Virus record (IMG/VR): IMGVR_UViG_3300005265_000033
Span: 1 to 49,049 of that record
Source of the DNA: a virus
Length of the DNA: 49,049 nucleotides
Strand: one strand, 5' to 3'
The notes below the pieces were generated by a model. It saw nothing but the letters and a program-made list of their open reading frames with translations, made no database searches and was not told the DNA's origin. Within the stretch, counting starts at the first letter, position 1; each line of letters begins with the position of its first letter. Both the position numbers and the translations under genes were made by a program. Shown piece by piece: positions 1 to 49,049 of this stretch.

Positions 1-104
1 CAATTTCTTGAGCTTGTTGAATTTCTCTTCGGATGGGGAATAATCCTTATTCTTAAGCCTCTCTAATTGTTCATCAGACGCATTCTTCAAAAACCTCAGT
101 AAGA
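1..104. repeat. Left copy of 104-bp terminal direct repeat
   Basis: These 104 bases are identical to the last 104 bases of the window. A minus-strand reading frame continues in phase from the left copy into the right copy. The sequence is therefore a circular or terminally redundant genome opened inside a gene. Whether the repeat is a physical terminal repeat or an assembly overlap cannot be seen from the sequence. Confidence 0.97.
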
Positions 105-909
105 ATGCATATCTTTCGTCTAAATCGTTCAGAACTTCCTTGCTTACGGGTTCTTTCCTCCAGAACAGAGAAGCTCCACCAGCAAATGGCTCGACGTAGA
201 CTTTGTGAGGCGGTATGTTCTCGAGGAAAATATAGACCTGCCTATCCTTGCCTAACGGATGAGCGAATGGTTTCTTCATTTTCTTTATCTGCACATCGCT
301 GATCTTTGCCTGGGCTACTTGAGGCTTGATGTACTCTTTGGGATCATCAAACTTTTTGAACATGAATTTGTAAATGTAATATCGAGTCCTGTCGCCAAAC
401 CACTCCTTCGCTTCCTTATCGGTCAGAAGATGGTATTTCTTTAAATTCTGGAAACCATTGCTGTCAACTTCAGTCACTCCTGTCAGTGTGATTATCCCAT
501 ACACTTTATCACCACATAAATACATTGGTTGAAATAAGAGATTATCGAATCTCCTTGCCTTAACAATCAGGGTTTTCATTCCCTTCCATATCAGCTTTGC
601 ATGTGGCTCTGTCAAGTATAGACCATCAAGAGCCTTCAGAACAATTCCCTTCCTCGATAGCCTCCTCAAAATCTTTCGAAAAAGCTCCTTGCCATACTCG
701 TTGTATTTCTCAGGGTGAAATTCAATCCCTCTCTTATGCAATTCCTCAGCTATCTTGGACGCTACATCGATAATCTCTTTATAGCTTATATGAAGCTTCT
801 TACCCTGCTTCTTGGAAGAGTAATAAGCGAAGCACCAGCGATAGTCATCTTTAAGCACATCAGTGGATTTTGACTCAGGTTTGTATGTATTTATTTCTGA
901 AAGCTTCAT
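1..909 (-). CDS. N-terminal part of methylase/MBL/ligase polyvalent protein (continues at 49049)
   Basis: The ATG at 909 shares one base with the portal stop codon. The frame is open to the window edge and, through the terminal repeat, continues into the minus-strand frame ending at 45862, giving 1,330 residues. Residues 1-100 are mostly helical and basic with no recognised domain. Residues about 100-205 resemble the ASCH/PUA-like fold, with a 'WKGMKTLIVK' strand followed by an 'HLLTDKEAKEWF' segment; this call is tentative. From about residue 212 a D12-class (Dam-type) adenine methyltransferase begins: its S-adenosylmethionine loop is EPFAGGASLFW at 240-250, preceded by HPLGKDRQ in place of the usual glycine-rich start. 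The DPPY catalytic motif lies in the other segment. Annotating this piece alone would wrongly suggest a truncated gene. Confidence 0.9.
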   Translation of the reverse strand, partial: MKLSEINTYKPESKSTDVLKDDYRWCFAYYSSKKQGKKLHISYKEIIDVASKIAEELHKRGIEFHPEKYNEYGKELFRKILRRLSRKGIVLKALDGLYLTEPHAKLIWKGMKTLIVKARRFDNLLFQPMYLCGDKVYGIITLTGVTEVDSNGFQNLKKYHLLTDKEAKEWFGDRTRYYIYKFMFKKFDDPKEYIKPQVAQAKISDVQIKKMKKPFAHPLGKDRQVYIFLENIPPHKVYVEPFAGGASLFWRKEPVSKEVLNDLDERYAFLLRFLKNASDEQLERLKNKDYSPSEEKFNKLKKL

Positions 910-2444
910 TACGCAGGCTCGCCTCTCGTTCCGTGCGGATATCTTTCAACAGTCGTTCCAGCTATCATTCTCTCAGACGCATCGCTGACTTTGGGTTTCT
1001 GAAGAGTTTTCCCCTTAGGCCTCTTTTTCTCAGGAGTCTGGCTGAGTGTGGGTTCAGTTGGGATGATGAGTTTTCCATGCTCGTTGAACCTGACATCGAA
1101 GCCTGCATTTCTCAGGGTGAGGAGGACATTGGCATCGATCTGCCTTATTTGAGCTTCTCTGAGCTCGTCTTTTTGCTCAATCGGGTTAAACTTGAAGACC
1201 CAATCAGTTATGCCGAATCTTGGAAGGAGAAAATTGTTGAACATTTCCTCCTTATCGCGCTGAATCTCCTTAATGGTCCTGTTCTGGACTTCAAGCTTGA
1301 TGTAAGGCGCAACTGAAGAGCTTCGAGAGGTCTTCGTAGGCAATCCCAAGAACACAGTCTGAACTCCAAAGACCGCGCATATGGACTGGATATAGGTCAT
1401 GTAAAATTCGAGGGACTGCATCTCGCCAAGCGAAGGCATCGCCTTGATGAATTGAATTGGTTGCTCAGATCCAAGCATCAGAGTCCTTATTGTCTTCTTC
1501 GTCCTCAGCAAACCCCTGACATCCTGCACTTCTCTCCTCTTGATATCAGCCTGTATCTCAGCCTGAAGAGCCTTTATCTGGTCCTGACTGTACCCGGGAA
1601 AATTCAGTATCCCACCAAGTTTCCCTTCGCTGTATGCATCGAGGTTATACTCATCCATCACCTTAATCGTGTGTATCAGATCCCATACGGCGATGATCTT
1701 GGGTCTTCCATGAAGCTCAGGCAATACTCTGCCTGTTGAGCCATGAACCATCCAATCCTCGCTGGACCTCGCAGTTATCTTTCCATTCACAACCTGAACG
1801 TAAGCTGTGCGTTCAAGCGGAAGACCGCATTCTGGACAATTGCCTGGTTTCGTGTAGTACTTGTCTGGGGTGTAGCAGAGAGGACAATAATACTCGTCAA
1901 TGCCAAGCCTCCCATACTCATCAGCTATCGGAACCCAATACCTCGAGTCCTCGACCCTTATCTCAGCTGGTCTGATGATGACATTTCCGTTCTTATCTTT
2001 TATCTTTGCCGGAAGTATCGAAATATACCAATCATCTGCTATGATATCATGGTATACAACGCTTCTCATCAAGTCTCCAAATGAGTAGTCAGGGTTTGGA
2101 TGCTGGATGAGCCTGTCAAACAATCGAGCCTGAGCCTGGCTTGGAGGTCTTGTCTCGCTGCCACATACCGGGCACTTATCAACGCTCTCCTGAAACTCAG
2201 CCCCACATGCAGTGCATTTCCTCCTGAATCGAGGCTCCCTCCTCCATCCAGGTCTCACAACTTCCTGTGTTACCACACGCACTATTGACTGAATGAGCCA
2301 TGATTCCTCTGCAACGTTGTAAATTGTCTGGTAATTCCACTTGGGGATACGAATCTGAGGCTCAGGGCTTAAATAAAAGGAGGGAATGACCGATCTGGTT
2401 GATTTCTCTATGATTGCAGGAGGCTTCTCAGTTACCCAGGGCAA
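909..2444 (-). CDS. Portal protein with two zinc ribbons
   Basis: Probable portal: a ring at one capsid vertex through which DNA is packaged and released. The call rests on size (about 511 aa), position directly after the large terminase, and an overall pattern like phage portals (long helical C-terminal half, Gln-rich tip region). Unusually, the N-terminal third carries two CxxC...CxxC zinc ribbons, at about residues 77-94 and 187-206. An upstream TTG at 2468 would add 8 residues. TTG at 2444 is preferred because a GGTGGAG ribosome-binding site sits 4-7 bases upstream. The stop shares a base with the start of the methylase-ligase gene. No similarity search was possible; other roles for a zinc-ribbon head protein cannot be fully excluded. 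Confidence 0.75.
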   Translation of the reverse strand: MPWVTEKPPAIIEKSTRSVIPSFYLSPEPQIRIPKWNYQTIYNVAEESWLIQSIVRVVTQEVVRPGWRREPRFRRKCTACGAEFQESVDKCPVCGSETRPPSQAQARLFDRLIQHPNPDYSFGDLMRSVVYHDIIADDWYISILPAKIKDKNGNVIIRPAEIRVEDSRYWVPIADEYGRLGIDEYYCPLCYTPDKYYTKPGNCPECGLPLERTAYVQVVNGKITARSSEDWMVHGSTGRVLPELHGRPKIIAVWDLIHTIKVMDEYNLDAYSEGKLGGILNFPGYSQDQIKALQAEIQADIKRREVQDVRGLLRTKKTIRTLMLGSEQPIQFIKAMPSLGEMQSLEFYMTYIQSICAVFGVQTVFLGLPTKTSRSSSVAPYIKLEVQNRTIKEIQRDKEEMFNNFLLPRFGITDWVFKFNPIEQKDELREAQIRQIDANVLLTLRNAGFDVRFNEHGKLIIPTEPTLSQTPEKKRPKGKTLQKPKVSDASERMIAGTTVERYPHGTRGEPA

Positions 2445-2445
2445 G

Positions 2446-2616
2446 CTACTCCACCTTCTTCTTTTCAACCACTATCTCAATTCTCTCGACCATTATGCTC
2501 TCTGTTATCTCGGACCCATTTATGAAAACCTTCAAATCTTCTGGCTTCGCATCAAGCTCCATGCCAAGCACTTCAACAGTCCCATCTTTATCTGCAAAGA
2601 ATACCCTCTTCTTCAT
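2446..2616 (-). CDS. Small hypothetical protein between terminase and portal
   Basis: A 56-aa frame from ATG 2616 fills the gap between the terminase and portal genes and ends just before the preferred portal start. The product has a beta-rich start (MKKRVFFADKDGTVEV), an acidic middle and a basic tail ending EKKKVE. No transmembrane segment, no cysteines, no family recognised. The next 59 bases toward the terminase show no gene. Confidence 0.6.
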   Translation of the reverse strand: MKKRVFFADKDGTVEVLGMELDAKPEDLKVFINGSEITESIMVERIEIVVEKKKVE

Positions 2617-2675: not shown

Positions 2676-3911
2676 TTACCATTCTACGAAGGCGAATCCG
2701 GGCAGAGTCGATCCCTTCCTCAAACCCCATGCGGCAAGTGCAAGGGCTATCACGCAGTCGTCGTGGAAACCTCTCGGAGCACTGTATTTATGCTTTCCAG
2801 TTGAAGTCGTCTCAACGCCGAACACCTCAAGCTCGTTGAGAAGCTCAGGGATCTCTGGAAATGTTATCTCACCCTGCTCGAGCATCAGAGCGAGGTTGTC
2901 TATGAGCGCGACCTTCTTGCTTGGGCTCAGGTAATAAGGCTTCACCCTCGTGTACATCTGGAGAATGAAGTCGTAGATAGGGTCTCCCAATCCAGTTGAG
3001 TCTATGTAGAGCTCAGCGTTGTATTGACTTGCCAGATTGATGACTCTCTTGACCTGCAAAGGCCAGTCAACGCTCTTGAATCTGTCGAACGCCACGAGGT
3101 GACCATGCTCATCCAGAATGCAGATGACCGTGAAGTCAGTCCTCTTGCCAAAATCCACTCCAGCTATATATGCTTTATCGCTGCTTGGAGGCTCAAAATC
3201 TCCCTTGATATTTATTATCCTGTTGTTGTTCGGGTTCCTCCTGAACCTGAACACTGAACCGAGATCGGAAAGGAACTCAGCGCCGTATTCCTGCCTGAAC
3301 AGACGCTCAGGCATTCCTTTCCTCGCAGACTCTATCTCTTTTGGATCGATGAATGGATTTGTCCAGGTTGGAAAATGAAAGCTCTCCCACTCTCCTCCCT
3401 TGATATTGCCCATCATGTATATCTCGTAGAACCAATTCATGCCCTGAGGGGTGGAGATGAATAATGCTTTGCCGAACTTGTCTGGATCGGAGAGGCGAGG
3501 TCTGACACATTCGAACCACACATCTCGCTTCATCCTCGCACACTCGTCAAGCACAACGAAGTCGAGACCCTGAGCTCTCAGATGCTCGTAATCCTCAGCG
3601 CTTTTGAACCATATCCAGCCGTCATTTATCATCCTGACAGCCTTCTCGGAGTGGTTTATCTTCGCAATTAAAGCTTTGGGAACCTCTTCAAGAAACATCC
3701 TCCATGCGACCAGAACTTCAGACCATGAAGGAGCCAACCACCATATCTTCGCCTTAGGTTTGCCGAGATACCACAAACATTCGTAGACTCCCATCTTGGT
3801 CTTTCCCCACCTCACCCCTGCACGCACAACTCTGAATCTCGCATTGCTCCTATGCACTTTTATCTGGCCTGGATGAGGCTTGTAGTCGATCACTACTTGC
3901 TGGACTGACAT
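2676..3911 (-). CDS. terL: Terminase large subunit
   Basis: The packaging motor: its ATPase drives genome translocation into the prohead and its nuclease cuts the DNA. From ATG 3911 (411 aa) there is a Walker A with GKT at 36-38 (context RAGVRWGKTK), a Walker B 'VVLDE' at about 119-123 and a coupling motif STPQG at about 153-157. The RNase H-like nuclease domain shows Asp253 (AGVDFGKRTD), Asp304 (YIDSTGLGDP) and an Asp pair near the C-terminus (GFHDD). The frame stays open upstream to an ATG at 3998. ATG 3911 is chosen because GGAGGTGAGG lies directly upstream and the extra Cys-rich 29 residues do not look like a terminase N-terminus. It sits between the phosphoesterase and portal genes in the head operon. 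Confidence 0.93.
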   Translation of the reverse strand: MSVQQVVIDYKPHPGQIKVHRSNARFRVVRAGVRWGKTKMGVYECLWYLGKPKAKIWWLAPSWSEVLVAWRMFLEEVPKALIAKINHSEKAVRMINDGWIWFKSAEDYEHLRAQGLDFVVLDECARMKRDVWFECVRPRLSDPDKFGKALFISTPQGMNWFYEIYMMGNIKGGEWESFHFPTWTNPFIDPKEIESARKGMPERLFRQEYGAEFLSDLGSVFRFRRNPNNNRIINIKGDFEPPSSDKAYIAGVDFGKRTDFTVICILDEHGHLVAFDRFKSVDWPLQVKRVINLASQYNAELYIDSTGLGDPIYDFILQMYTRVKPYYLSPSKKVALIDNLALMLEQGEITFPEIPELLNELEVFGVETTSTGKHKYSAPRGFHDDCVIALALAAWGLRKGSTLPGFAFVEW

Positions 3912-3991
3912 TCCCTCACCTCCTTCAGCTCTAACTCTACGATTCTGGCAGCATTCCTCGCTATGGATACCGCATCCTTCTTCGATAACAT
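3893..3991 (-). CDS. Possible 32-aa micro-ORF upstream of terminase
   Basis: An ATG at 3991, just after the phosphoesterase stop, opens a 32-aa frame (MLSKKDAVSIARNAARIVEL...) that runs past the terminase start in another frame. The predicted peptide is one amphipathic helix. It would explain why 87 bases separate the phosphoesterase stop from the preferred terminase start. Without comparative data it could be chance. Confidence 0.3.
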   Translation of the reverse strand: MLSKKDAVSIARNAARIVELELKEVRECQSSK

Positions 3992-3997
3992 TAAACA

Positions 3998-4864
3998 TTA
4001 TCCCTCCCTCAGATAATCGCTTATCCTCGGTGGTTTGAAGAGGTAATGATGTATGCTTATTCTATCATACTCGTCGATGAAGAGGATGACGCCTCCTATA
4101 TGAGGTTGCATCTTGCCGTAAAGCCTTATCGTGCCCTTGTATGGAAACCATGCACACCATCCTGGTATCTGAAGTATGTGTTGATTGGGTAAGTGTATGT
4201 GGATGAAGCGGTGCCAGTGAGCTCTCACGACAACGTCGGGTAAGAAGTCGAGGTCTCCAAGGCCATACGCTGCAGCCTCAAACAACGCCTCTCTATCCAT
4301 CAACGTGGTTCTGTAAATAGTCGCTCCAGACACTCCATGTGCAAGGTTCAGTATTCGACTCGTTCCCTTGAGCCTGATATTAGCCATGAGACCGTGAAAA
4401 TGAGATTCCTTCGCAACGCTTCCAAGCTCCTTCGCTATATCGTAGTGGATCCTCGTGTCTATTGATTCGTGGTAAAGGGTACCGGATAGACTATGCACTA
4501 TCCGATTTTTGCAGATTTTCGATAGCAAGGTGACCGCTGCGTCTTTCTGCTCATCGAGGTCTGTTGTCACGGTCCCAACGCCTCTTCCAGCCGGGTTATT
4601 TCCCTGTATGATATCGCCTAGGAGAATCACTGTATCGATACCCCATGCATCACATATCTTTTCCCACTCTTTCCAATACTTGTAGAGCTGTATTTGACCT
4701 TCATTTCTCATAGCGCCAAGATCGTTTCCCTGCTTTCCTTTAACATTAGGTGGAAAGACAGCATATCTTGATCCAACATGTGTGTCAGCCACAAATGCGA
4801 CTATTCTCTTGAATTTCAGGTGAAGCTCTCTCGGTTTTTTCGGAAATGACCATCTTCTAGTCAT
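3998..4864 (-). CDS. Calcineurin-like metallophosphoesterase
   Basis: A 288-aa protein of the metallophosphoesterase superfamily, which uses a two-metal centre on phosphomono- or diesters, including nucleic acids. Visible motifs are a first metal motif DTH at about residues 28-30 (VAFVADTHVGSR), a GD motif in 'VILLGDIIQG', and a C-terminal AHWH resembling GHxH. The usual GNHD block is replaced by 'SGTLYHES', where only the His is kept. It overlaps the HTH gene upstream by 4 bases and directly precedes the terminase region. A role in DNA-end or nucleotide processing during packaging is inferred from context; the substrate is unknown. Confidence 0.8.
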   Translation of the reverse strand: MTRRWSFPKKPRELHLKFKRIVAFVADTHVGSRYAVFPPNVKGKQGNDLGAMRNEGQIQLYKYWKEWEKICDAWGIDTVILLGDIIQGNNPAGRGVGTVTTDLDEQKDAAVTLLSKICKNRIVHSLSGTLYHESIDTRIHYDIAKELGSVAKESHFHGLMANIRLKGTSRILNLAHGVSGATIYRTTLMDREALFEAAAYGLGDLDFLPDVVVRAHWHRFIHIHLPNQHILQIPGWCAWFPYKGTIRLYGKMQPHIGGVILFIDEYDRISIHHYLFKPPRISDYLREG

Positions 4865-27573: not shown

Positions 27574-29184
27574 TCACTTCATATACTCCAATAACTTGAA
27601 GAATTGGATCGGAAGTTCTGAGATTTCCTGTGTGAATGTGAATATGTTCGGGATTCTGGTGAGCTCTTCAACGAATGGAACTTCGAGAACCCTCAAGGAT
27701 TTTGATAAGAGTAGAACTCCAACCTTCTTTCCCGAGTTTCTATATTCGTTTATCATTTTGAGGGAGAGATATGTGTCTCCTGGCATTCCATCCGTCATCA
27801 CAACGAGCCTGTCTATGTTGACCATGTATGGAGAAAGCTTGCGAAGAATATAACCCAATGGGGTTCCTCCTTCAGACTCGAGACCAGCTATCCTCTCCTT
27901 TGCGTTCAGGTCGAATGGGATATGGAGGTCTTTTATGAGGGATAATGCTTGGCCTGAGAATGATATTATGGAAAATTCGATGCCGATGTAGTCGAGCGCG
28001 GAAGTGATGATCGCAAGTGCCTGCCTGTACATCTCGTTATACCCTTCTGTCGAAGCAGACATGTCAACGAGGAAGAGGAATTTGCCTTCCGGTCTCAGCT
28101 TTCTCTCGTCTATGAAGAACTTTGGTCTCTCGTATGACCTGTAGTGCCTTGAGAGGAGGTAGGATTCAGGCTCGATATCGTCGCCCACATGTCCCAAAGC
28201 CTCAACCCATCCAACTTTCCACTTCATGAGATTGGTCTTGAGGATCTCTGCCTGAGCTTTCACGGGAGAGTATATTTCTTCCCAGTCGCCTCTCTGCCTC
28301 TGCACAGAGCCGCCAAACAGGCCTGCCGATGCCTCCATCACCTGCATCTGCTCTTCGTATTTCTTGATGTATTTTTTCACTTCTTCAAACTCTGAGAGGA
28401 TGAACTGCGGAGCTTCTATTTTTATTTCCTTTCCCGTTTCCAGAGTTTGAGGAAGCACAGTGTATTTTATCTCTTCAATGGAAAAAGCGCCTATAGGTTC
28501 GACCCATAAGTCTTCCAGAATGTTGTATGCAAGGATGACCGAGTTTATCAGGTCGTCCACAGTCTCGATCTTCTCCATGATCTTCTTTACTTTGAGGAGC
28601 CTTCTGGTCCACTTGGTCTGCCTTTTCGGTTTGTAATCGAACAGGAGAATGCCTATCATCAAATTTGTGAGCCTGAGTGCCCTTATTGAGTTGTCTGTGA
28701 GGAGGTTGAGAGTTGATGCCAGTGAAGGTATGTTTGCCAATGCGATTTCCGTACCTCTTCTTCCGATCTCTTTCATGAATTCCTTCTCTTCTTCGTATTT
28801 GTAATCCCTCAAGCCAAGCTTTTCAATCCTGTAGTCCTCAAAGATGTCGATAAGGTTCATGAGGAGCTTTTCCTTTCTGATGTATGAGATATATGTAGGT
28901 TTGCTGGATAGGAGCATGTCCCGTGCTGATTCGAATATGTCTTTCCTATCAGGGGAGAACCTTATGTGCTGAGCCTCGTGCCAGGCGGAGAACCTGAAGA
29001 ACCTCCATCTTCTCACATCGTATAAGTTGAGTTCTTTTTCGTTTGGTATTCTTTCAAGGTAGCTTGGAAGGTGAATTATCTTTGTCTCTGGATGTGCATA
29101 GAACCAATAAGCTCTATATATTCTTACGTTCTTATCTTCGCTCCATGCACGTGCCAGGAAGGAGAGGACTTCGTCAGGGTTCAA
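27574..29184 (-). CDS. VWA-domain protein with N-terminal metallopeptidase-like domain
   Basis: 536 aa from TTG 29184 (GGGGGA upstream). The N-terminal region has HEAQH at 69-73 (SAWHEAQHIRF) and 'EDYRIE' at 116-121, the combination seen in the metallopeptidase-like domains of CobT-type VWA proteins. The middle is helical. Residues about 365-536 form a von Willebrand A domain with MIDAS residues DMSAS (374-378), Thr441 (GGTPLG) and Asp465 (MTDGMPGD). It is partnered with the MoxR-type AAA+ ATPase two genes upstream, the classic MoxR-VWA pair used for protein remodelling or metal insertion. Confidence 0.85.
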   Translation of the reverse strand: MNPDEVLSFLARAWSEDKNVRIYRAYWFYAHPETKIIHLPSYLERIPNEKELNLYDVRRWRFFRFSAWHEAQHIRFSPDRKDIFESARDMLLSSKPTYISYIRKEKLLMNLIDIFEDYRIEKLGLRDYKYEEEKEFMKEIGRRGTEIALANIPSLASTLNLLTDNSIRALRLTNLMIGILLFDYKPKRQTKWTRRLLKVKKIMEKIETVDDLINSVILAYNILEDLWVEPIGAFSIEEIKYTVLPQTLETGKEIKIEAPQFILSEFEEVKKYIKKYEEQMQVMEASAGLFGGSVQRQRGDWEEIYSPVKAQAEILKTNLMKWKVGWVEALGHVGDDIEPESYLLSRHYRSYERPKFFIDERKLRPEGKFLFLVDMSASTEGYNEMYRQALAIITSALDYIGIEFSIISFSGQALSLIKDLHIPFDLNAKERIAGLESEGGTPLGYILRKLSPYMVNIDRLVVMTDGMPGDTYLSLKMINEYRNSGKKVGVLLLSKSLRVLEVPFVEELTRIPNIFTFTQEISELPIQFFKLLEYMK

Positions 29185-29185
29185 G

Positions 29186-29437
29186 CTATTTCCCCCTTAT
29201 TTTGAGGGGTTTAACTATCACGTATGTTGGTTTCACTTTTATTATGACGCACTCGACCACATCTCCAGGTTTTATCTCGTAGGAAAGTGGATCATACTTT
29301 GCAAAGAGGACTATCTTGCCATTTGCGAGCCTGCTTATCGGAAGACCTCCCTCTTTCCCTTCCTGCGCAACCACTATCAGCTCATCGTCTATGCTTTCGG
29401 TTATCTGGTATGATTCTTCGAGGAAGTCAAGAGTCAT
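29186..29437 (-). CDS. TRAM/OB-like small protein between MoxR and VWA genes
   Basis: 83 aa from ATG 29437 (ATGA overlap with the MoxR stop; a longer frame to 29545 lacks coding character). Beta-rich: 'DDELIVVAQEGKEGGLPISR', 'GKIVLFAKYDPLSYEIKPGD', 'VVECVIIKVKPTYVIVKPLK'. The block '...IKPGDVVEC.I.KVK..Y.I.' is typical of TRAM domains, OB barrels that bind RNA or act as chaperone platforms in archaea. One base from the VWA gene start. Confidence 0.65.
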   Translation of the reverse strand: MTLDFLEESYQITESIDDELIVVAQEGKEGGLPISRLANGKIVLFAKYDPLSYEIKPGDVVECVIIKVKPTYVIVKPLKIRGK

Positions 29438-30447
29438 TCTTCTATCCTCCCCAACTTGCTCTCTAACAACTCGGTTGCCTGCATCTTCACAGTTTCTCCC
29501 CATTGCGCATATACTTCTACCAGGACCATGTTTATTGCGGTCCATTCCTTGATGCCTGATGCAAGGAGGCGAGCTATCGCTATGCTTTCTCGAATGCTTG
29601 GGATGTATGGTAACTCGGTCTTTCTCAGAAACTGCATTGCCTTGATGATTTCTACCATCTCGGATGAGTATTTGCTTATCTCAGGGACGTGCAGTTTAAC
29701 GATGTTGTATTCCGTGCTGATGTCAGGGTATCTGAGTTCCAGCTTGACAGGGAAACGTGATATTATCTGCGCTGGAAGCATTTTGGTGCCTAAGTGAAGT
29801 CTGTCAAGTGGGTTGATAGATGCGACGCACCACCATCCCTCTTTCGCCCTGAATGTCCTGCCTTCAACGTTTATCTCTTTCCTGTGGTCTAATGCCTCAT
29901 CGACCCGAACAAGGACATCGGGTTCCGCCACTGAAAGTTCGTCAAAATAACAGATCCCTCCCTCTTCCATGCTGAGGATCAACGGTCCCTTCTTGAAGTA
30001 TAAGTTGCCTTCCTGAGTAGTATCGAGCCTGCCTATTATATGATGCTCCCTTGTCCTCAGGGAGCATGGAATGATTCGGAGAGGTTTGTGGAGTAGCTCA
30101 GCTGTCTTTCTGATACTTTCGGTTTTTCCCACTCCTGCTGGGCCAATTAACAACACATTCAGTCCCAGCTCATAGCACTTCAAAAGCTTGCTGACCACAT
30201 GCTGCCAATCGTCGTAAATAACGTTCTGAGGGATGAGGCTGTTTTCTTGTTCTGTCTCTACCTTGCCAGATATGTTAACTGATACCCAGACGTCTCTTCC
30301 CACTTTCTTTATCTGTCCTGTGCTTCTCAGGACATTGAGCTCCCTGAGCAGGTCTCTTGGAGACGCTGAAAGCTTTGCTGATAGGTCGCTTACCTTCCAG
30401 TCTCCTTTCTCTCTAAAACACTCAATTATCTGATCTCTCAAATTCAT
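29434..30447 (-). CDS. MoxR-type AAA+ ATPase with N-terminal winged helix
   Basis: 337 aa. Residues 1-55 are a winged helix ('WKVSDLSAKLSASPRDLLRE', 'LNVLRSTGQIKKVGRDVWVS'). The AAA+ core has Walker A GPAGVGKT at 102-109, Walker B 'GGICYFDELSVAE' at about 164-176, and a MoxR-like insertion 'ALDHRKEINVEGRTFRAKEG' before sensor 1 'CVASINP'. C-terminal helical lid to 337. MoxR ATPases act with VWA proteins as chaperones. Among archaeal viruses, Acidianus two-tailed virus encodes a MoxR-type ATPase and a VWA protein that interact; a similar role here is inferred. Confidence 0.88.
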   Translation of the reverse strand: MNLRDQIIECFREKGDWKVSDLSAKLSASPRDLLRELNVLRSTGQIKKVGRDVWVSVNISGKVETEQENSLIPQNVIYDDWQHVVSKLLKCYELGLNVLLIGPAGVGKTESIRKTAELLHKPLRIIPCSLRTREHHIIGRLDTTQEGNLYFKKGPLILSMEEGGICYFDELSVAEPDVLVRVDEALDHRKEINVEGRTFRAKEGWWCVASINPLDRLHLGTKMLPAQIISRFPVKLELRYPDISTEYNIVKLHVPEISKYSSEMVEIIKAMQFLRKTELPYIPSIRESIAIARLLASGIKEWTAINMVLVEVYAQWGETVKMQATELLESKLGRIEE

Positions 30448-41702: not shown

Positions 41703-42920
41703 TCACTCCCCAACAAAATACATTAATTCCCTGAAGTCCATTGCTTCGTCAGCCTTCTCCCTTATCTCTTCGAGGTTCACTTCCTCGAATTTCTTGGATT
41801 TGGGCTGGACGCTCTTCTTGATCACTTCCTCAGCATTCTCCAGACCAAGCTCTTTGACTATCTCAGCCTTCAGCTTGTTAAACTCTTCAACTGCCTTCTT
41901 ATACTCTTCCTCGTTCTCAAAGTCCTCTTTCTCCGGATACTTGTAGTAATAATATTCTGGTTTTTTCTTTTTCTTCTTCGCTTTCTTTTCCTCGTCTTCC
42001 TCTTCCTCATCCTCAGGCTTGGCTTTGTTCTTCTTCTTCCACTCAAGAGCACATTCCTTCATGCTCTTCCCTGACTTCATGCAATTCTTCATGAAGCTCT
42101 TGTAAGACTCCTTATCCACAACGTCGAGGATCGCAGCGAAGTCCTCCATCTCCTTCTCGAGCTTCTTCTCGTTCTCAGCGCGCACTATCACTTCGTTGAG
42201 CTTCCCGGTGAGCTTCTTGACTTCTTCGATGAGCGTCGCTACTTCAGCTTTCTCGATTTTCTCTTCTTCCTCCATTTTTGATCGCTCTTCTTTTAATATA
42301 TGCGTATTAATAAATGTTTCACCAAGTCCCTCATCCCAATCCTCATCAGCGTTATCCTGCTTTTCCAGAATAAACGCTTTAGCTTTCGGATTTTTCCCCT
42401 GATCACATGACGTGACTTCGTAGAGTTCAAGCCTCACTATCTCGGTCCAGCATTTGTTCTCATCACACTTGACTTCACGGCCACCCGGAAGCACCCTTCC
42501 TCCTATGCTGAAGGACATCAACTCTCCTTTCTTCATCCTCTCAATGACTTCCTTTCCAGTGACCGTATCATCGAATACCTCCGCGACGATGAATAATCCC
42601 TTATCATCCACTCCAGACTTCCAGACTTTTCCGTTCTTATCAACATACTTCGGCAGTATTTCTCCTATCTGGATGTTCTGGTGATGAAGCATCAAATTGC
42701 GCCTTGACTCTCTCTTCATCATCTTCTCGAAAGCTTCTTTGAGAGCCTCTGGAGTGATCTTCTCATTGTCCTTATCCACAATGTTTACCGAAGCATAGCC
42801 TGCGATAACAAATCTGGACTTCTCAGACTTGAGAACAAAACAGGGCGCTGAGTAATAAACAGCCTCCTGAAATGCATACTCAGACGCCTGTTCCATCGGA
42901 ACCAAGACGTATTCGCTCAT
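41703..42920 (-). CDS. Prohead protease fused to scaffold-like region
   Basis: 405 aa from ATG 42920 (ATGA overlap with the preceding gene; ATG 42944 would add 8). Residues about 35-180 are a U35-type prohead serine protease: 'VIAGYASVNIVDKDNEKITP', catalytic His in 'NLMLHHQNIQIGEIL' (79/80) and Ser in 'ELMSFSIGGR' (about 136-138). The remaining ~220 residues are Lys/Glu-rich coiled coil ('VATLIEEVKKLTGKLNEVIV', 'PEDEEEEDEEKKAKKKKKKP'), typical of a scaffold that is cleaved off during maturation. Confidence 0.88.
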   Translation of the reverse strand: MSEYVLVPMEQASEYAFQEAVYYSAPCFVLKSEKSRFVIAGYASVNIVDKDNEKITPEALKEAFEKMMKRESRRNLMLHHQNIQIGEILPKYVDKNGKVWKSGVDDKGLFIVAEVFDDTVTGKEVIERMKKGELMSFSIGGRVLPGGREVKCDENKCWTEIVRLELYEVTSCDQGKNPKAKAFILEKQDNADEDWDEGLGETFINTHILKEERSKMEEEEKIEKAEVATLIEEVKKLTGKLNEVIVRAENEKKLEKEMEDFAAILDVVDKESYKSFMKNCMKSGKSMKECALEWKKKNKAKPEDEEEEDEEKKAKKKKKKPEYYYYKYPEKEDFENEEEYKKAVEEFNKLKAEIVKELGLENAEEVIKKSVQPKSKKFEEVNLEEIREKADEAMDFRELMYFVGE

Positions 42921-45865
42921 CCTCTCACCTGCACTCCCTGCCACTCAATATATGGTTTAAAGTCAAACTCTCTTTTAATTCTTTCGATGCTCCAGACATT
43001 CTTATCAAATTTAAGGGACTGAATCCTAGCACCGTGTACAGTTCCAGGTCTCGGGTACAGGCAGATGTTAGCCTCGACTCCTTCAGGCAGTTTGGGTATC
43101 TTATACCTCTTAGCTTTCTCCTCGCTTTCACATCTCGTAAAATCTCTTATATCATGCAGGTGAATTCTGATGAACGTGGCTTTATCTTCATATTTTAATT
43201 CTTTCTCCATCCCCGGCAAGGCTGACCTTATGAACCTCCATGTCTTACCATCAGACTTAAGCACGTAATAACCCTTCAATGAATCTCCATGAAACATGAA
43301 GCTCCTGAACAGCTGAGACTTCTCTATGAAATCCACCTTTCCTCTATCGAGGATATGAACATCAGTCCATACTCCTCCAACCTTCCTCTTGCCCTCAGCC
43401 TCCATCCATGCCTTATCATAACATTTCTTCAGCATAACAACTTCAGACTCGTCTATGCCATACTTTCTCGGATCCTTCTTCAAAGACCATTCAATGAGGT
43501 AGTCTTCTCCCTCGTCTATCCTGATATCGAAATGCGAGCCTCCCTTCCATACATGCCTCTGCAGTACGAAACTCCCTGATGCTTTCTTGATGTTAGACTT
43601 GCTGAAGGAATAGAGGTCGGAACCTCGTTCTTCCTGCTCAAGCTTCCAGAACTTGCCTAGCTTACCTGAGAACGAGAGTATCAGCACTTCCTTACCATTT
43701 ACCCTCTTAGCATCAACATATACAGTTCCCTTATCAAGTATCCTTACATCTGCATTGAGTCTCTTGCGAGGATTGAATAGCTCACCAGGCTTCAGCTTTC
43801 CTTCATACTCGAACCACTTCTTAGGAGCCTGACCTATATATCCAGCAGCAGTTGGATGCACATATAGAGGATTGTACCATAGCTCCCAAGTCCTTATCTT
43901 GTTCCCCTGCTTGATATTTAAGAACCAATACATCACAGGGATATCTCTGATGACTTTCTGACCCTTCCAGCTCATCTGCTGCAACGAGTATTCAGCCTCA
44001 GCCTTCAATAACTCCTTAGTCTCGCCCCATCTTTCTTTCACCCATTCAAACCATTCCTCGAACTTCTGCCTGTTCTTCTCTATCCACCACTTGGGTATCG
44101 GTATGAAGCCTTTAGGAGGAACCCATCCAGTTCTCTTACCTCTCTTGACAGCGTATGGATCTTGATCACGAGGCACCCAAGTCTCCCACATCAGCTCGAA
44201 CTTGCCGGGTTTAGGCTTCTTCGTCTCGGGGTCTATGACAGCCTGCTTGACAGCCCTCATATTCACTCGTATCTTCTCAAATGTCAGCTTATGCTTCTTC
44301 TTAGCTATCGAGTCCAAGAAGTACTCATGATACCATGGTTTCTGAGCTCCAAATGTAACATATCCCTTATCAACGATCAGGAATCTACCTGGTTTATATC
44401 TCGTAGCACCAACAGACCCCGGTTTAACCTCAAACGTCTCACCCGTATCCATCTTCACAATAAGCTTGTCTAAGCTCTCTATCACTTCATATGAGTCCCC
44501 CACATCGAACTTCCATAGCTGATCGAATGGGACAACTGAGCCTCCCTTCCAGAATAACCATGTTTTGGGCTGCCTAGCTTTGGTCTCACATCTGCATTTC
44601 CTATTGTTCATGCCGGGAACAGGTCTGAATGTCCAATCGAGTTTGTTGATCAAAGAGGGTAACTCATCAAGTGTGGGAGCATGGTCTATTTTCGGATTAT
44701 CGAGGATCGTATTATGAGCGAGTATCTTGCCAACGCCAGCTATGAATGTCCCGTCCTCAGTCTCAAAATCATAAACGTAGCAGTTCCTGCCTCGATTGAC
44801 TTTGTAGATATCGATTATCTCATCCGGTGGCTTTAGTGGCTTCCGCTTTCTCCCATAAACATAGACATTAAGCGAATTATACTTCCTCACCGAACTTATT
44901 CCGAAATCTCTTCCTCGATTCGTCTCTAAGAATAGAATCCCAGCTCCTAAAGCCTTAGAATGAATCGAAAAGCTCATACCAGACCCATCTGGATGTCCAT
45001 CTCCTGTATAGAATCCGTCTAAGAAGGCATCTCGTGCATCCTTATCGGCATTTAGTATTAATTTAGGTACGATTTTATAACGACGATGAGTCGAAGTATT
45101 CTTATTTACAACATAACATAGATTAAAGAATAAGGGCTGAGCCCATAATATGCGGAGTCGCCAGCAATTCTTATCCTGTCTCTCAATCCTTGAGGGAATG
45201 CCGAACTTTATTAGCTTCCGCTTTGCTAATTTAAGCTTGCTCAAATCCTCATCTGAAATCCATGCTTCCCACTGTTTTCTTCGTGCGGCGTAACCATCTG
45301 CACAGAAGTATCCCAAAAGCCATGCCCAATCTTTGTCAACCTCCAGATTCGGGATATCTACTTGAAGTTCAGCTAAATCTATAGAATCGCCTTTCTTGAG
45401 ATCCCCAGCTCTTATTGGAGTTCCGTTCTGGAATAATGAATGAGAGGGCGTAACTTCTATGGCTCCCCGTCTAGTCACGACTCTCACGAGATCATGTTCA
45501 AAGATGTGCCTAGCAGCTCGTTTCACCTTCCTGAATCCGTTTCCGGTGAGAATTTCTAATCCATCCACTTCTTTTTTTATTTCAAACCCTATTCCATCAA
45601 AATTTATGACGCATTCTGCTGGAAGAATCTCGATCATTCCGTTTCGTCTTACGATTACTGGTTCATCGAAAGCCACGCTCCAACCTATCAGGTGATTGTT
45701 CACTTCCAGCCTGAAGTCCCAATGCACACTTCGACTTCTCCAGTGATGCTGCAGCACATACCTCACTTTGCCATTCTTCTCATTTGGAGGAAGCTCTAAG
45801 TATATAGGTCTAGACCACGGTATTTCAGGCTCTCCTTTCAATAACAAATCCCGCGTTATCCTCAT
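42917..45865 (-). CDS. Double 3'-phosphoesterase (LigD_N-like) protein with intein
   Basis: 982 aa as translated (659 after splicing). ATG 45865 overlaps the ligase-fusion stop by 4 bases; an ATG at 45907 would add 14. Residues 36-62 carry the start of a LigD 3'-phosphoesterase (PE) domain: 'YVLQHHWRSRSVHWDFRLE' with His40/41, His48, Asp50, Arg52, ending '...HLIGW', where the intein interrupts (residues 63-385). The exteins resume 'TILDNPKIDHAPTLDEL'. A second PE domain lies at about 763-885: 'FVLQRHVWKGGSHFDIRI' (His771, His778, Asp780, Arg782) and 'GYYVLKSDGKTWRFIRS'. The large middle (about 390-760) is unassigned, with one more PE-like C-terminal half ('VRILDKGTVYVDAKRVNGKE'). PE domains remove 3' phosphates or ribonucleotides before ligation. 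Here they follow the ligase gene in the head operon. Confidence 0.85.
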   Translation of the reverse strand: MRITRDLLLKGEPEIPWSRPIYLELPPNEKNGKVRYVLQHHWRSRSVHWDFRLEVNNHLIGWSVAFDEPVIVRRNGMIEILPAECVINFDGIGFEIKKEVDGLEILTGNGFRKVKRAARHIFEHDLVRVVTRRGAIEVTPSHSLFQNGTPIRAGDLKKGDSIDLAELQVDIPNLEVDKDWAWLLGYFCADGYAARRKQWEAWISDEDLSKLKLAKRKLIKFGIPSRIERQDKNCWRLRILWAQPLFFNLCYVVNKNTSTHRRYKIVPKLILNADKDARDAFLDGFYTGDGHPDGSGMSFSIHSKALGAGILFLETNRGRDFGISSVRKYNSLNVYVYGRKRKPLKPPDEIIDIYKVNRGRNCYVYDFETEDGTFIAGVGKILAHNTILDNPKIDHAPTLDELPSLINKLDWTFRPVPGMNNRKCRCETKARQPKTWLFWKGGSVVPFDQLWKFDVGDSYEVIESLDKLIVKMDTGETFEVKPGSVGATRYKPGRFLIVDKGYVTFGAQKPWYHEYFLDSIAKKKHKLTFEKIRVNMRAVKQAVIDPETKKPKPGKFELMWETWVPRDQDPYAVKRGKRTGWVPPKGFIPIPKWWIEKNRQKFEEWFEWVKERWGETKELLKAEAEYSLQQMSWKGQKVIRDIPVMYWFLNIKQGNKIRTWELWYNPLYVHPTAAGYIGQAPKKWFEYEGKLKPGELFNPRKRLNADVRILDKGTVYVDAKRVNGKEVLILSFSGKLGKFWKLEQEERGSDLYSFSKSNIKKASGSFVLQRHVWKGGSHFDIRIDEGEDYLIEWSLKKDPRKYGIDESEVVMLKKCYDKAWMEAEGKRKVGGVWTDVHILDRGKVDFIEKSQLFRSFMFHGDSLKGYYVLKSDGKTWRFIRSALPGMEKELKYEDKATFIRIHLHDIRDFTRCESEEKAKRYKIPKLPEGVEANICLYPRPGTVHGARIQSLKFDKNVWSIERIKREFDFKPYIEWQGVQVRG
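44711..45679 (-). other. Intein with LAGLIDADG endonuclease (323 aa)
   Basis: In-frame insertion with splicing signature: first residue Ser (SVAFDEPVIVRRNGMIEI), block B 'VTPSHSL' with TxxH, two LAGLIDADG-type motifs 'LLGYFCADG' (121-129) and 'FLDGFYTGDG' (219-228), and C-terminal 'VYDFETEDGTFIAG' then 'ILAHN' followed by Thr. The Ser1, penultimate His, terminal Asn and Thr+1 fit class-1 splicing. It sits exactly at the conserved Trp of the phosphoesterase active-site motif, so the enzyme should be inactive until splicing. Both endonuclease motifs keep an acidic residue, so homing activity is plausible. Confidence 0.9.
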
Positions 45866-48800
45866 TCTTCTCGCCACGCATAATAATACGGTTTGACCCT
45901 TCTGCATTTATAATAATTAGCGAGTTTACAATCAATAGGATATTTAAGCTCCTGAACTCTGAGCTTGACATCTTTGGACTTCCACACTCCATTCACGAGT
46001 ATCTTTATCCTGTTTATTAAGGGGCATATTTCCTCGTCAAATGCATAGGGACATGGAGGAAGCTTGATCTCTATAACCTTCTCATCAGCTTTCTCAGTTC
46101 GCTCATAAGGCCTCGTCCCAAGCTTCGAAAGCTTCTCCACAACATCAATTGGATCAGGCTCCTTCTTCTCAGGTCTCCACAGCCCAGCCTTAGGGAACAT
46201 CCATGCGAAAAATACCTTATTATCTTCCTCGCCTCTCTCTATGCGTATAGGCATCACGGTCAAAATGCTACCTTCAGGTCTTTTCCCTTTCACGTTATAA
46301 CATGTGCCAATTCTCAAATATTTCTTACCCCTGAACTCTATAACATCTCGTTCTCTGTATTTGCTTAAGTCCTTCTCCGGTATTGGTCCCACAACGCCTT
46401 GCCATGTGAACACATCCTTGGTCCCTCTTACCAGATGAGGCTTGAGAACCATAACTTCAATTTCCTTTAAATTTTTCAACTTTGCGAGTTCCTTATTCCT
46501 TGCTGCTCTATCATACCTTATCTTATAAACTGAGTCAGTTACTTTAAACACAGCGCCTTCAGAGTTCGGGAAATACCTCGCCCATTTCGCATATTTGAAG
46601 AACTCCCTCATGTTATGAGCAGTCCTAGACTCCACAACATGGAAATGCTTGCCTTCCTTCAATATCTCCTTAAGCTTCTCATACCGCTCTATCGCAGGCT
46701 TTTGAGTATAGTCTTCTCCATTCAGATATAACAAGTCATGCATATGAAATATTACTCGACTATCATCAAGGCTACTTGGTCTGGCTGCGATCCACTTGAC
46801 CAAGTCCTCTCTCGGAATCTGCCTATATTTAGTCCACAGCTTATCATTCTCTGGATACTCAACATCGTTAGAGTACTCGACCATCTCAGCGACTAAGATA
46901 GCATCCTTAGCTTTTAATAACTCAGGTAACTCAGCAGAAGACTCTCTGAACGCATCAATCCTATTCCTCAGTTGATCCTCAGTGAAGAATCCAATTGGCT
47001 TTCCGTTCTTAACATGTATCTGAAAGCTCATGCCGTCATACTTAGGCTGAACCATGATGCCTCTGTCAATCCTTGAAGCAGCCCACTTTGCCCATGCATT
47101 CTCTATCTTCCAGAACTCATTCTTCTGCCAGCCACTAGCAGGTTTCTGAGGCTGAGAAGGCTTCCCTAACCTCAATCCCTTATCCTTCTCAAGCTTTCCT
47201 TCCCTCTGCACGTAAAGCGGTATCGAGATACCAATGCCTCCCCTCGTATCAAATATGAACTCAAGCTTCTCCCTGATATCATTCCTCGTACAAGCATGGA
47301 TCAATACTCGTTTAACTTCTGGCAAATATTCATCAGAAGCTATGCGAATGTCTATGTCGTGATGAGATACCCATCCTCTATTAGCAAGTCCTCCGACGAG
47401 GTAAATTGCCGGTACATCGGCTGGAAGCTTGATAATATCTGGGAATGAATCAATTACCTCATGAAGCGTGATCTTCTTCTCTTCCTTCTCCCATGGAGGA
47501 TACTCCTGAATCCAGAACCTAGCTTCCTGACTCAATTTATCGTTTATGCTTCGTTCAATCCCTCGCTTCTTCATTTCATTCTCTACAAATATCTCAGCGT
47601 TAAGAAGAGGCTCAGTAACCTTCTTCTCCTCTTCATAAATTTCATGAAGCTTCTCGTATAGCTTCACAAGCTCTTTATCACTAAGCTTTTCTACATGTTC
47701 ATCATCTATCTCTTCTAAATTAATGGATTTACTAACCTTAACGGAAGTGGTCCATCCATCATAAGCCATTTCAGCCCCTAACTCAGCAAGCTTCTTCTCA
47801 AGCTCTTTACCCAGCTTGATAGGTTCAGATCCAAAATGAGTGAAGATGATGCGCTTCACATTTGCTTCTTTACACCACTTTATCTGTTGGGGAATCCCTG
47901 CGTGACCAACAGCCTCATCTCTCTCCTCATCCCACCTTGTCAGACCATCTTCTCTGAGTGTTGATCCATCCCCGATGTATAGATCACAATTGGTCAAGAA
48001 CCTGTCTCGGTGCTCTTTCCGTATGCTCAGCACATCAGAAGCATAGCAGATCCTGTATCCTCCAGCATTGATGAATAATGCGATGTTAGGAGCCTTAGAG
48101 GAATGAAGGACAGGGACGCTTATGACTTCTATATCTCCAATCCTGAATGCGCTCCTGCGCTTGAACACCGTCTTGTTAAACTTGTAATCATCCTCTTCAT
48201 AATACTCGGAGTGAGTCGTGGCGTCTGTGATGAATACAGGAACCTTCACATCTTTGCCTTTGAGACCAAATAGGTGATCTGGGTGCGCATGCGTGACAAT
48301 TATTGCATCGCATTCAGGAAGCGCTCCGTTCACATCGCCCCAATCAATCAACAGCCTCGTCTTACCATCATCTATCAACAGAGAAGCTCTCTTGTTGTGC
48401 AATTCAGACTTCTCGTCAACGTAGCCTCTCGTACCAAGAAACTTCAAGAGGACATCGGACTTGTTGAGTCTTGGTATCTTGGTCGGGTAATTAGATATCA
48501 AGAGCTCTCGCTTGATGGGATAATTGACATTCTTGGCTCTCTTTGTTAGAAAACTTTTTACTTCGAATCCTGCATTCTTGAATAATTTCTTGATGAGAGG
48601 ATCATCACTGAAGCTCAACAGAAATTTACCCTTTATCTTCCTGCATGCTTCAAATAGCCTCTTCTTGAAAGCTTCCGGGTCCTCGTTCTTAATATCCTCG
48701 TCCATGTATGGAGGATCAAGGTAGAAGAACGTATCTGGAGAGTCATATTTCCTTATTATTTTTTCAAAGTCTTTATTTTCAATAATAGTATTTTTTAAAC

Positions 48801-49049
48801 GCTGTCTATAATCCTCAGGTTGAGTGATGTAGCCGCATCTGATTCCTTCCCTCTTCCTATGCGCAAAGCTTTCCATACACCCTCCATAAGAGTGCATGTT
48901 GAGATATATGAGCTTATAAGCTCTTTCAACGTCATCTCTGGGGTCCAATTTCTTGAGCTTGTTGAATTTCTCTTCGGATGGGGAATAATCCTTATTCTTA
49001 AGCCTCTCTAATTGTTCATCAGACGCATTCTTCAAAAACCTCAGTAAGA
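45862..49049 (-). CDS. Dam methylase/MBL/nucleotidyltransferase/DNA ligase fusion (continues from position 909)
   Basis: Main part of a 1,330-aa protein whose start is at 909 across the terminal repeat; numbering is for the full protein. Dam-type adenine methylase about 212-465, catalytic DPPY at 380-383 (FFYLDPPYMDED). Metallo-beta-lactamase fold about 468-713: HAHPDH at 522-527, His584, Asp607, His673. Nucleotidyltransferase-like unit about 810-880: 'YLVGGLANRGWVSHHDIDIR' with Asp833 and Asp835. ATP-dependent DNA ligase about 915-1200: nucleotidyl Lys938 in QPKYDG, 'LVAEMVEYS', EGAVFK at 1099-1104, then an OB-like end. A C-terminal ~100 residues with Cys/Tyr is unassigned. Portal gene lies before it; the double phosphoesterase overlaps by 4 bases. 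Together they look like a DNA protection and end-joining kit carried in the head. Function is inferred. Confidence 0.9.
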   Translation of the reverse strand, partial: LLRFLKNASDEQLERLKNKDYSPSEEKFNKLKKLDPRDDVERAYKLIYLNMHSYGGCMESFAHRKREGIRCGYITQPEDYRQRLKNTIIENKDFEKIIRKYDSPDTFFYLDPPYMDEDIKNEDPEAFKKRLFEACRKIKGKFLLSFSDDPLIKKLFKNAGFEVKSFLTKRAKNVNYPIKRELLISNYPTKIPRLNKSDVLLKFLGTRGYVDEKSELHNKRASLLIDDGKTRLLIDWGDVNGALPECDAIIVTHAHPDHLFGLKGKDVKVPVFITDATTHSEYYEEDDYKFNKTVFKRRSAFRIGDIEVISVPVLHSSKAPNIALFINAGGYRICYASDVLSIRKEHRDRFLTNCDLYIGDGSTLREDGLTRWDEERDEAVGHAGIPQQIKWCKEANVKRIIFTHFGSEPIKLGKELEKKLAELGAEMAYDGWTTSVKVSKSINLEEIDDEHVEKLSDKELVKLYEKLHEIYEEEKKVTEPLLNAEIFVENEMKKRGIERSINDKLSQEARFWIQEYPPWEKEEKKITLHEVIDSFPDIIKLPADVPAIYLVGGLANRGWVSHHDIDIRIASDEYLPEVKRVLIHACTRNDIREKLEFIFDTRGGIGISIPLYVQREGKLEKDKGLRLGKPSQPQKPASGWQKNEFWKIENAWAKWAASRIDRGIMVQPKYDGMSFQIHVKNGKPIGFFTEDQLRNRIDAFRESSAELPELLKAKDAILVAEMVEYSNDVEYPENDKLWTKYRQIPREDLVKWIAARPSSLDDSRVIFHMHDLLYLNGEDYTQKPAIERYEKLKEILKEGKHFHVVESRTAHNMREFFKYAKWARYFPNSEGAVFKVTDSVYKIRYDRAARNKELAKLKNLKEIEVMVLKPHLVRGTKDVFTWQGVVGPIPEKDLSKYRERDVIEFRGKKYLRIGTCYNVKGKRPEGSILTVMPIRIERGEEDNKVFFAWMFPKAGLWRPEKKEPDPIDVVEKLSKLGTRPYERTEKADEKVIEIKLPPCPYAFDEEICPLINRIKILVNGVWKSKDVKLRVQELKYPIDCKLANYYKCRRVKPYYYAWREE
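48946..49049. repeat. Right copy of 104-bp terminal direct repeat
   Basis: Exact copy of bases 1-104. Removing one copy gives a 48,945-bp unit in which the methylase-ligase gene is uninterrupted (1,330 codons plus stop) and the head operon is continuous. Confidence 0.97.

Follow-up and report, generated by a model that had tools for sequence, protein, structure and literature searches.

The stretch of viral DNA analyzed here, IMG/VR record IMGVR_UViG_3300005265_000033 (positions 1-49,049; hereafter the window, 49,049 nucleotides in full), carries among its head genes a minus-strand gene that runs across both ends of the record and encodes a chain of fused DNA-processing domains. An exact 104-bp repeat is present at the two window ends (1-104 and 48946-49049), and removal of one repeat copy yields a circular viral genome of 48,945 bp. 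This repeat may be a true terminal repeat or an assembly overlap, for which it is short enough. With the junction closed, the minus-strand frame ending at 909 and the frame at 45862-49047 join into a single gene of 1,330 codons that reads from 909 to 1 and then from 48945 to 45862, without interruption, up to its stop codon at 45862-45864. A sequence-only reading of this DNA had proposed one giant gene across the circular junction, and this is what we found, although the interval it assigned to the gene (45862-49049) takes in only the C-terminal bulk of the protein, about residues 270-1330. The fusion gene is not an artefact of the junction, because four other contigs, cited here by our own locus numbers, carry it unbroken: L003 (1,337 residues) and L004 (1,332 residues) as a single frame, and L005 (1,652 residues) and L100 (1,648 residues) with an intein of about 318 residues in the ligase domain. 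L003, L004 and L005 were retrieved by a search with the window protein and L100, part of a Guaymas Archaeoglobales metagenome-assembled genome (MAG), by a genome scan; a further contig, L006, holds the 5' part of the gene. The homologues share 81-87% identity, and every domain is under strong purifying selection (pN 0.06-0.13, pS 0.6-1.0, with synonymous sites near saturation). The single-gene fusion is thus real.

The genes around it follow one another on a single strand in the order terL, portal, fusion gene, a gene for a LigD-type 3'-phosphoesterase (PE), prohead protease and probable major capsid gene, and the run from the portal to the last of these is one overlapping operon. The start of the fusion gene at 909 overlaps the portal stop codon, its 3' end overlaps the PE gene by 46 nt, and the PE gene in turn overlaps the protease gene. 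The placement of the fusion gene between portal and prohead protease, as first read from the sequence, therefore holds for the portal side, but the intein-containing PE gene, which that reading did not mention, precedes the protease.

Within its 1,330 residues, the fusion protein accommodates five to six domains, ordered as a helical domain, an ASCH-like domain, a Dam-type methylase, a metallo-β-lactamase (MBL) fold of the RNase Z/PhnP type, a Polβ-like nucleotidyltransferase (NTase) and an ATP-dependent DNA ligase (Table 1). The motifs EPFAGG, DPPY, HAHPDH, KYDG and EGAVFK that had been quoted for it are all found in the window protein, and on the uninterrupted homologue from L003 the Pfam matches to the D12 methylase (7e-21), Lactamase_B_2 (5e-17) and DNA_ligase_A_M (6e-21) lie above the cut-off. 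We built AlphaFold models of the fusion protein with family alignments and compared them to solved structures by Foldseek. The mean predicted local-distance-difference-test scores (pLDDT) of these models are modest (66 and 71); the methylase and the ligase are well defined, and the MBL domain stays near 60. The sequence-only reading had staked itself on the methylase, MBL and ligase folds, and the models match Dam, ELAC/RNase Z/PhnP and archaeal DNA ligases, respectively. The methylase model resembles E. coli Dam (E 8e-14, TMt 0.75), which together with the FxGG and DPPY motifs and the Pfam match above cut-off places the domain in the Dam/D12 group. The ligase model (pLDDT about 85-95) matches the P. 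furiosus enzyme at an E-value of 5e-21, the ligase family profile matches archaeal DNA ligases (4eq5 at 5e-28), and KxDG, EGxxxK, an adenylation domain and an OB fold mark it as an ATP-dependent DNA ligase.

The best fold matches of the MBL domain are ELAC, 1zkp, YhfI (6kns), RNase Z (1y44), PhnP (3g1p) and Apyc1 (7u2r), with TMt values of about 0.55-0.74, and no β-CASP insertion was seen in this domain. Apyc1 is an anti-Pycsar enzyme of the RNase Z/PhnP-type group. These fold matches lend no support to an Artemis-like (β-CASP) MBL, and we therefore group the domain, with its HxHxDH motif, among the RNase Z/PhnP-type phosphodiesterases and not among the Artemis-like nucleases. The ASCH-like and Pol-β-like regions, both named in advance, are putative assignments from motifs and profile matches with weak scores. 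The ASCH profile aligned over the full length of Thermus TTHA0113 (1wk2/2dp9), an ASCH protein, at an E-value of 0.013, and Pfam ASCH (PF04266) matched one relative only, at 0.0023. For the NTase, the PDB profile search was weak and the best Pfam Polbeta match among the relatives was 0.016; G..G..D.D positions are invariant in the 42 NTase-bearing relatives, the G[GS]-x(n)-DxD motif is present in 39 of them, and the model forms a β-helix-β core with pLDDT values of about 75-83. A winged-helix assignment for the N-terminal helices was dropped (the DUF6088 match was at 0.11, and one relative aligned weakly with part of Pyr_excise, whose cut-off is exceeded among the relatives in L163 only), and these helices are left as a helical domain without a family name.

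Table 1. Features of the fusion gene, its protein domains (residue numbers of the 1,330-residue chain) and the adjoining head genes in the window.
Feature	Coordinates	Strand	Basis and remarks
Terminase large subunit	2676..3998	-	Pfam Terminase_6N 2.3e-8, Terminase_6C 1.7e-7; same strand, upstream of portal gene
Portal protein	909..2468	-	Pfam Phage_portal 1.1e-12
N-terminal helical domain	849-625	-	Within block of residues 21-191 (337..849); own profile; helical/ASCH region in 22/64 relatives
ASCH-like domain	624-337	-	Within block of residues 21-191 (337..849); profile matches; low-confidence model
Dam-type (D12) methylase, N-terminal part, residues 214-303 (YVEPFAGGASLFW)	1..270	-	Pfam PF02086 4.8e-07 on piece; continues at 48945-48538
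D12 methylase, C-terminal part with DPPY, residues 304-439	48538..48945	-	Pfam 1.2e-11 on piece
MBL domain, HAHPDH, residues 468-694	47773..48453	-	Pfam Lactamase_B_2 4e-16
Pol-β-like nucleotidyltransferase, residues 791-890 (LVGGLANRGWVSHHDIDIR)	47185..47484	-	Motif GGLANRGWVSHHDID; Polbeta E 0.084
ATP-dependent DNA ligase, adenylation domain (KYDG, EGAVFK) and OB fold, residues 930-1240	46135..47067	-	Pfam 5e-18
C-terminal tail, four conserved cysteines, residues 1241-1330	45862..46134	-	Alignment of homologues; low-confidence model
LigD-type PE protein, 996 residues including intein	42917..45907	-	RSVHWDFR, FGAQKPWYHEYF; second PE-like stretch after
PE intein, 323 residues	44711..45679	-	LAGLIDADG_3 7.6e-8; boundaries from alignment with intein-free homologues
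Prohead protease (S78)	41703..42944	-	Pfam Peptidase_S78 6.7e-13
Probable major capsid protein, 427 residues	40413..41696	-	Directly after protease; position and conservation in L003, L005, L100, L152

The adjacent gene codes for the PE protein. Its match to Pfam LigD_N falls below the cut-off in the window (1.2e-5) and lies above it in the relative L146, and the PE family profile matches the crystallised PE domains 3p4h (6.5e-6) and 3p43 (1.2e-3). The motif VLQHHW.SRSVHWDFR keeps the order of the PaeLigD site Gln40, His42, His48, Asp50 and Arg52, plus one extra residue; His48 and Asp50 are presumably site residues. Gln40, His42, Arg52, His84 and Tyr88 have been named as residues of the PaeLigD PE site (PMC8656161). 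With an H..H-x-D-x-R site and PE homology, the protein belongs to the LigD-type PEs. The discovery of this adjacent gene strengthens the proposal, made from the sequence alone, that the enzymes join DNA. The PE intein sits at a conserved GW|T site; it is present in L100 and absent from L003, L004 and L005. Its DNA is 97.2% identical between the window and L100, compared to 77% for the flanking coding DNA, and this excess is a sign of recent lateral homing. The ligase intein common to L005 and L100, located shortly after a YKIRYD motif, is likewise more similar (98.3%) than the exteins (89.2%). The PE protein of L003 (13177-15438) differs from that of L005 by an insertion at about residues 585-651, a dinitrogenase iron-molybdenum cofactor-like domain (PF02579, 26.8 bits).

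A ligase next to a PE raises the question of non-homologous end joining (NHEJ), by which a viral machine would circularise the incoming genome, with the PE healing the ends, the NTase and the MBL domain trimming or filling them, and the ligase joining them. Of the three LigD activities, the locus has the ligase and the PE (PMC8656161), ligase IV is among the profile and Foldseek matches, and the genome map is circular. The third LigD component is missing, as no AEP polymerase match was found in the chain by a Pfam scan (Ku was not searched for), and the MBL domain lacks the β-CASP domain of Artemis. Moreover, a circular map may stem from circular permutation with recombination, and Dam and uracil-DNA glycosylase (UDG) modules, the latter found in a relative described below, would be needless for joining. 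We judge such an end-joining machine to be quite unlikely.

To place the fusion protein in a wider context, we searched IMG/VR with the PE profile and obtained 80 loci; after removal of duplicates and of the closest kin of the window, and addition of two archaeal MAG loci, the comparison covered 64 distinct proteins from viruses or archaea, the longest of 2,226 residues. Since PE was the seed of the search, all 64 contain it, and the counts that follow therefore describe this sample and not all viruses. Our own domain models detected the ligase in 52, the NTase in 42, the helical/ASCH region in 22, the methylase in 17 and the MBL domain in three of them; independent Pfam counts are 47 for the ligase and 20 for the D12 methylase. 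The domain order is permuted among the relatives, and ASCH, NTase, ligase and PE are fused in various ways or encoded on adjacent genes (Rosetta-stone linkage). Thus, L124 encodes MBL-Dam-ASCH-NTase-ligase-PE in a single chain, and L152, which is related to the window virus and shares its portal-X-PE-protease order, encodes ASCH-MBL-NTase-ligase followed by a PE gene, without Dam; in L107, L146, L167 and L168 the modules are split over adjacent genes. ANMV-1 and many other relatives likewise have PE, NTase and ligase joined in one protein. The domain order of the window protein, which the sequence-only reading knew from no described protein, recurs in four relatives and is a variant within a large shuffled family. 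This PE-linked family is not unique to the window; shuffled versions of it occur in dozens of uncultured viruses.

The active-site motifs are widely kept in the family. The PE signature HxHxDxR is present in 63 of the 64 proteins, the ligase motif EGxxxK in 47 of 49, and KxDG in 37, with KxNG in most others. Nine relatives (L117, L127, L129, L132, L144, L147, L148, L151 and L159) have KxNG in place of KxDG, keep EGxxxK, and have the PE ahead of the ligase; their substrate or activity may differ. The MBL motif is intact in L169 and L152. In L141, a family-4-like UDG lies between ligase and PE, in the same chain as the NTase. A 1,914-residue member (L104:6797-12541) possesses two ligase-type domains and a degenerate MBL domain. 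An N-terminal queuine-tRNA transglycosylase (DpdA-like) domain was suspected from a motif in L110, L111, L128 and L148, but neither PF01702 nor the PDB gave a match.

The family is tied to the head genes in two ways. A C-terminal S78_2/XkdF prohead protease domain was found in 26 of the 64 proteins with our own models (27 by Pfam), in all 26 within 20 residues of the end. In addition, we compared 51 upstream and 58 downstream neighbours with PHROGs, counting families and not loci; the neighbours were picked mechanically and include some that are not real genes. When the 25 families hit most often on each side are considered, every annotated one upstream is a portal, minor head, head morphogenesis or head protease family, and every annotated one downstream is a head protease, major head or virion structural family. 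These data bear on the idea that the fusion came about incidentally through operon compression, its domains being ordinary soluble enzymes of DNA metabolism that never enter the virion. The relatives in which the modules are separate neighbouring genes would fit this idea; on the other hand, one would not expect dozens of diverse viruses to keep replication enzymes in the place between portal and protease, or to join them to the protease at one and the same end in every case. We regard it as very improbable.

The same operon position and protease fusion also fit with enzymes that work during assembly or packaging, in the procapsid or in the late-infected cell, where they would methylate the DNA and seal nicks, be freed by the prohead protease, and not be injected; the virus would benefit from having nicked concatemers ligated ahead of packaging. 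A UDG and an MBL phosphodiesterase, however, suit arrival or repair better, and late proteins could rely on ordinary ligases encoded elsewhere. An assembly role is, in our view, unlikely.

The reading that we favor, with moderate confidence, is that the fusion protein is a capsid-packaged polyvalent protein, in which the NTase-ligase-PE core heals and seals DNA breaks of the incoming genome and the optional modules mark or protect it. Packaging, delivery, catalytic activity, substrate and the order of the steps are predictions from sequence and models here. The enzyme chain would be translated between portal and prohead protease and enter the procapsid with the protease layer, as an N-terminal extension of the protease in the 26 relatives; it would then be packaged with the genome and enter the host with it. 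There, the core may act on the incoming DNA ahead of viral gene expression: the PE would trim blocked 3' ends to 3'-OH, the NTase would add or fill nucleotides, and the ATP-dependent ligase would seal nicks or ends. Marks set by the Dam module could protect the DNA from restriction. Modified bases or nucleic acid are possible ligands of the ASCH module, and the MBL module is a candidate phosphodiesterase, either for cleaning ends or for breaking down the cyclic nucleotides by which the host signals alarm. In L141, a short repair pathway in one chain is conceivable, consisting of glycosylase, end cleaning, filling and sealing. The tasks of marking and joining suggested at the outset fit the Dam and ligase domains, but DNA repair is indicated as much as end joining because the UDG shares the L141 chain with NTase, ligase and PE.

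The packaged-protein reading is supported by the uninterrupted open reading frames of more than 1,300 residues in four further contigs and by the intact catalytic motifs in the window. The earlier label of a polyvalent protein is backed by the head-gene neighbours in many unrelated viruses and by the protease fusions, but packaging itself stays a prediction. Several observations weigh against our proposal. A chain of more than 1,300 residues must fit a small capsid and pass the portal. ASCH and NTase, resting on motifs and weak profile scores, are the weakest domain assignments. Ligase motif I is altered in L128, and the MBL motif is altered in L124 (HGHTGH) and lost in L104, so not every module is catalytic everywhere. 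Finally, GATC representation shows no difference between Dam-bearing and Dam-lacking relatives (p 0.75), and the marking role thus has no methylation footprint in these genomes. CTAG is depleted in the Dam-bearing relatives, a difference that is probably confounded by lineage.

The window has close kin in the Archaeoglobales MAG, while MAGs of Methanosarcinales and Euryarchaeota hold further kin; a match was found in 7 of 393 genomes of the phylum of the Archaeoglobales MAG. The host of the window virus is probably an archaeon, although membership of a viral contig in a bin is not proof of host. A MoxR-type AAA ATPase is encoded near a VWA-domain protein at 27574-30447 of the window; this pair and an OB-fold protein would agree with an archaeal host without being diagnostic of one. 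The notion of an archaeal-virus protein thus applies to the kin of the window (Archaeoglobales and Methanosarcinales MAGs, and ANMV-1) and is not extended to most family members. Elsewhere in the window, a calcineurin-like phosphoesterase (3998-4864; weak Pfam match) is encoded directly upstream of the large terminase gene and kept in L003, L005 and L006; the major capsid candidate had no match in a Pfam scan.

It is to us an evenly balanced proposition that a self-contained, capsid-borne machine of this kind for DNA break repair and marking (an NTase-ligase-PE core with optional Dam/Dcm, UDG and MBL modules) is common among the tailed viruses that infect archaea, and perhaps among those of bacteria, that it arose next to the prohead protease or as an extension of its N-terminus, and that it repairs and protects the genome at entry. 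If true, such viruses would import their own DNA repair and end-sealing enzymes with the genome and would not wait for host enzymes or early expression, a new strategy against extracellular damage and against restriction or nuclease attack at entry. The family is widespread, recognisable by its PE signature and annotated just as 'DNA ligase', and it offers many candidates for direct tests. Its compact ligase-PE-nucleotidyltransferase chains, some of them probably from thermophilic viruses, could also serve as reagents.

According to Iyer et al. (2017; PMC5512222), phage polyvalent proteins are multidomain proteins whose genes lie close to late virion genes. They comprise two to fifteen diverse domains, of which the window protein has five to six, and lie near virion genes or are fused to virion domains, as is the case here. 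With polyvalent proteins such as DarB of P1 the PE-linked family shares the large multidomain chain among head genes, the adenine methylase, DNA-processing domains and links to virion domains. What sets it apart is the core, made up of an NTase, an ATP-dependent DNA ligase and a PE of the LigD type and accompanied by ASCH and MBL, and its tie to the prohead protease, whereas polyvalent proteins are tied to MuF or to zincin peptidases (in ANMV-1, a MuF-type protein does come next). In PMC5512222, 'ligase' occurs three times, including in a passage on RNA ligases, 'ASCH' is absent, and among the 'metallo' passages are ones on metallopeptidases. The original network of polyvalent proteins is connected through common domains (LPDs, zincin peptidase, ART, SWI2/SNF2); of the domain kinds listed in that paper, we noted in the present family just the adenine methylase and a 2H domain, the latter in a single relative (no dedicated LPD search was made). 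A core of ligase, PE, ASCH and MBL was met neither in these polyvalent-protein passages nor in open-licence literature. Likewise, we found in open-licence papers no published description of a ligase-prohead protease fusion, of the ANMV-1 ligase or of archaeal polyvalent proteins.

One of the nearest known counterparts is AJP62006 (annotated 'ATP-dependent DNA ligase'; KP703175) of ANMV-1, a virus from methane-seep archaea, which unites NTase, ligase and PE in one 866-residue chain and lies directly after the portal gene and before a protein ending in a MuF-type match. It differs from the window protein in having no ASCH, Dam or MBL domain and in that its PE is fused, not a separate gene; identity to the window piece is 25% over the matching 43% of that piece. 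Although its neighbour AJP62005 (L086:1913-3193) bears the annotation 'MutT-like phage hydrolase', Pfam (Phage_portal_3 3.2e-22) and PHROG (portal 2e-30) matches identify it as a portal protein. Bacterial and archaeal LigD, the NHEJ ligase, shares the ATP-dependent ligase and the 3'-phosphoesterase with the window family but has an AEP polymerase domain where the latter has a Polbeta-like NTase, and the viral PE, encoded in a head operon, is set apart by insertions and a FGAQKP..HEYF signature. RNase Z, ELAC, PhnP and Apyc1 share motif and fold with the window MBL, which in contrast is embedded in a multi-enzyme chain. XkdF (S78_2) proteases form the C-terminal domain of the 26 protease-fused family members, whereas in the window the S78 protease has a gene of its own, which directly follows that of the PE; what distinguishes the XkdF domains of this family is the stretch of DNA enzymes on their N-terminal side, from hundreds of residues up to about two thousand.

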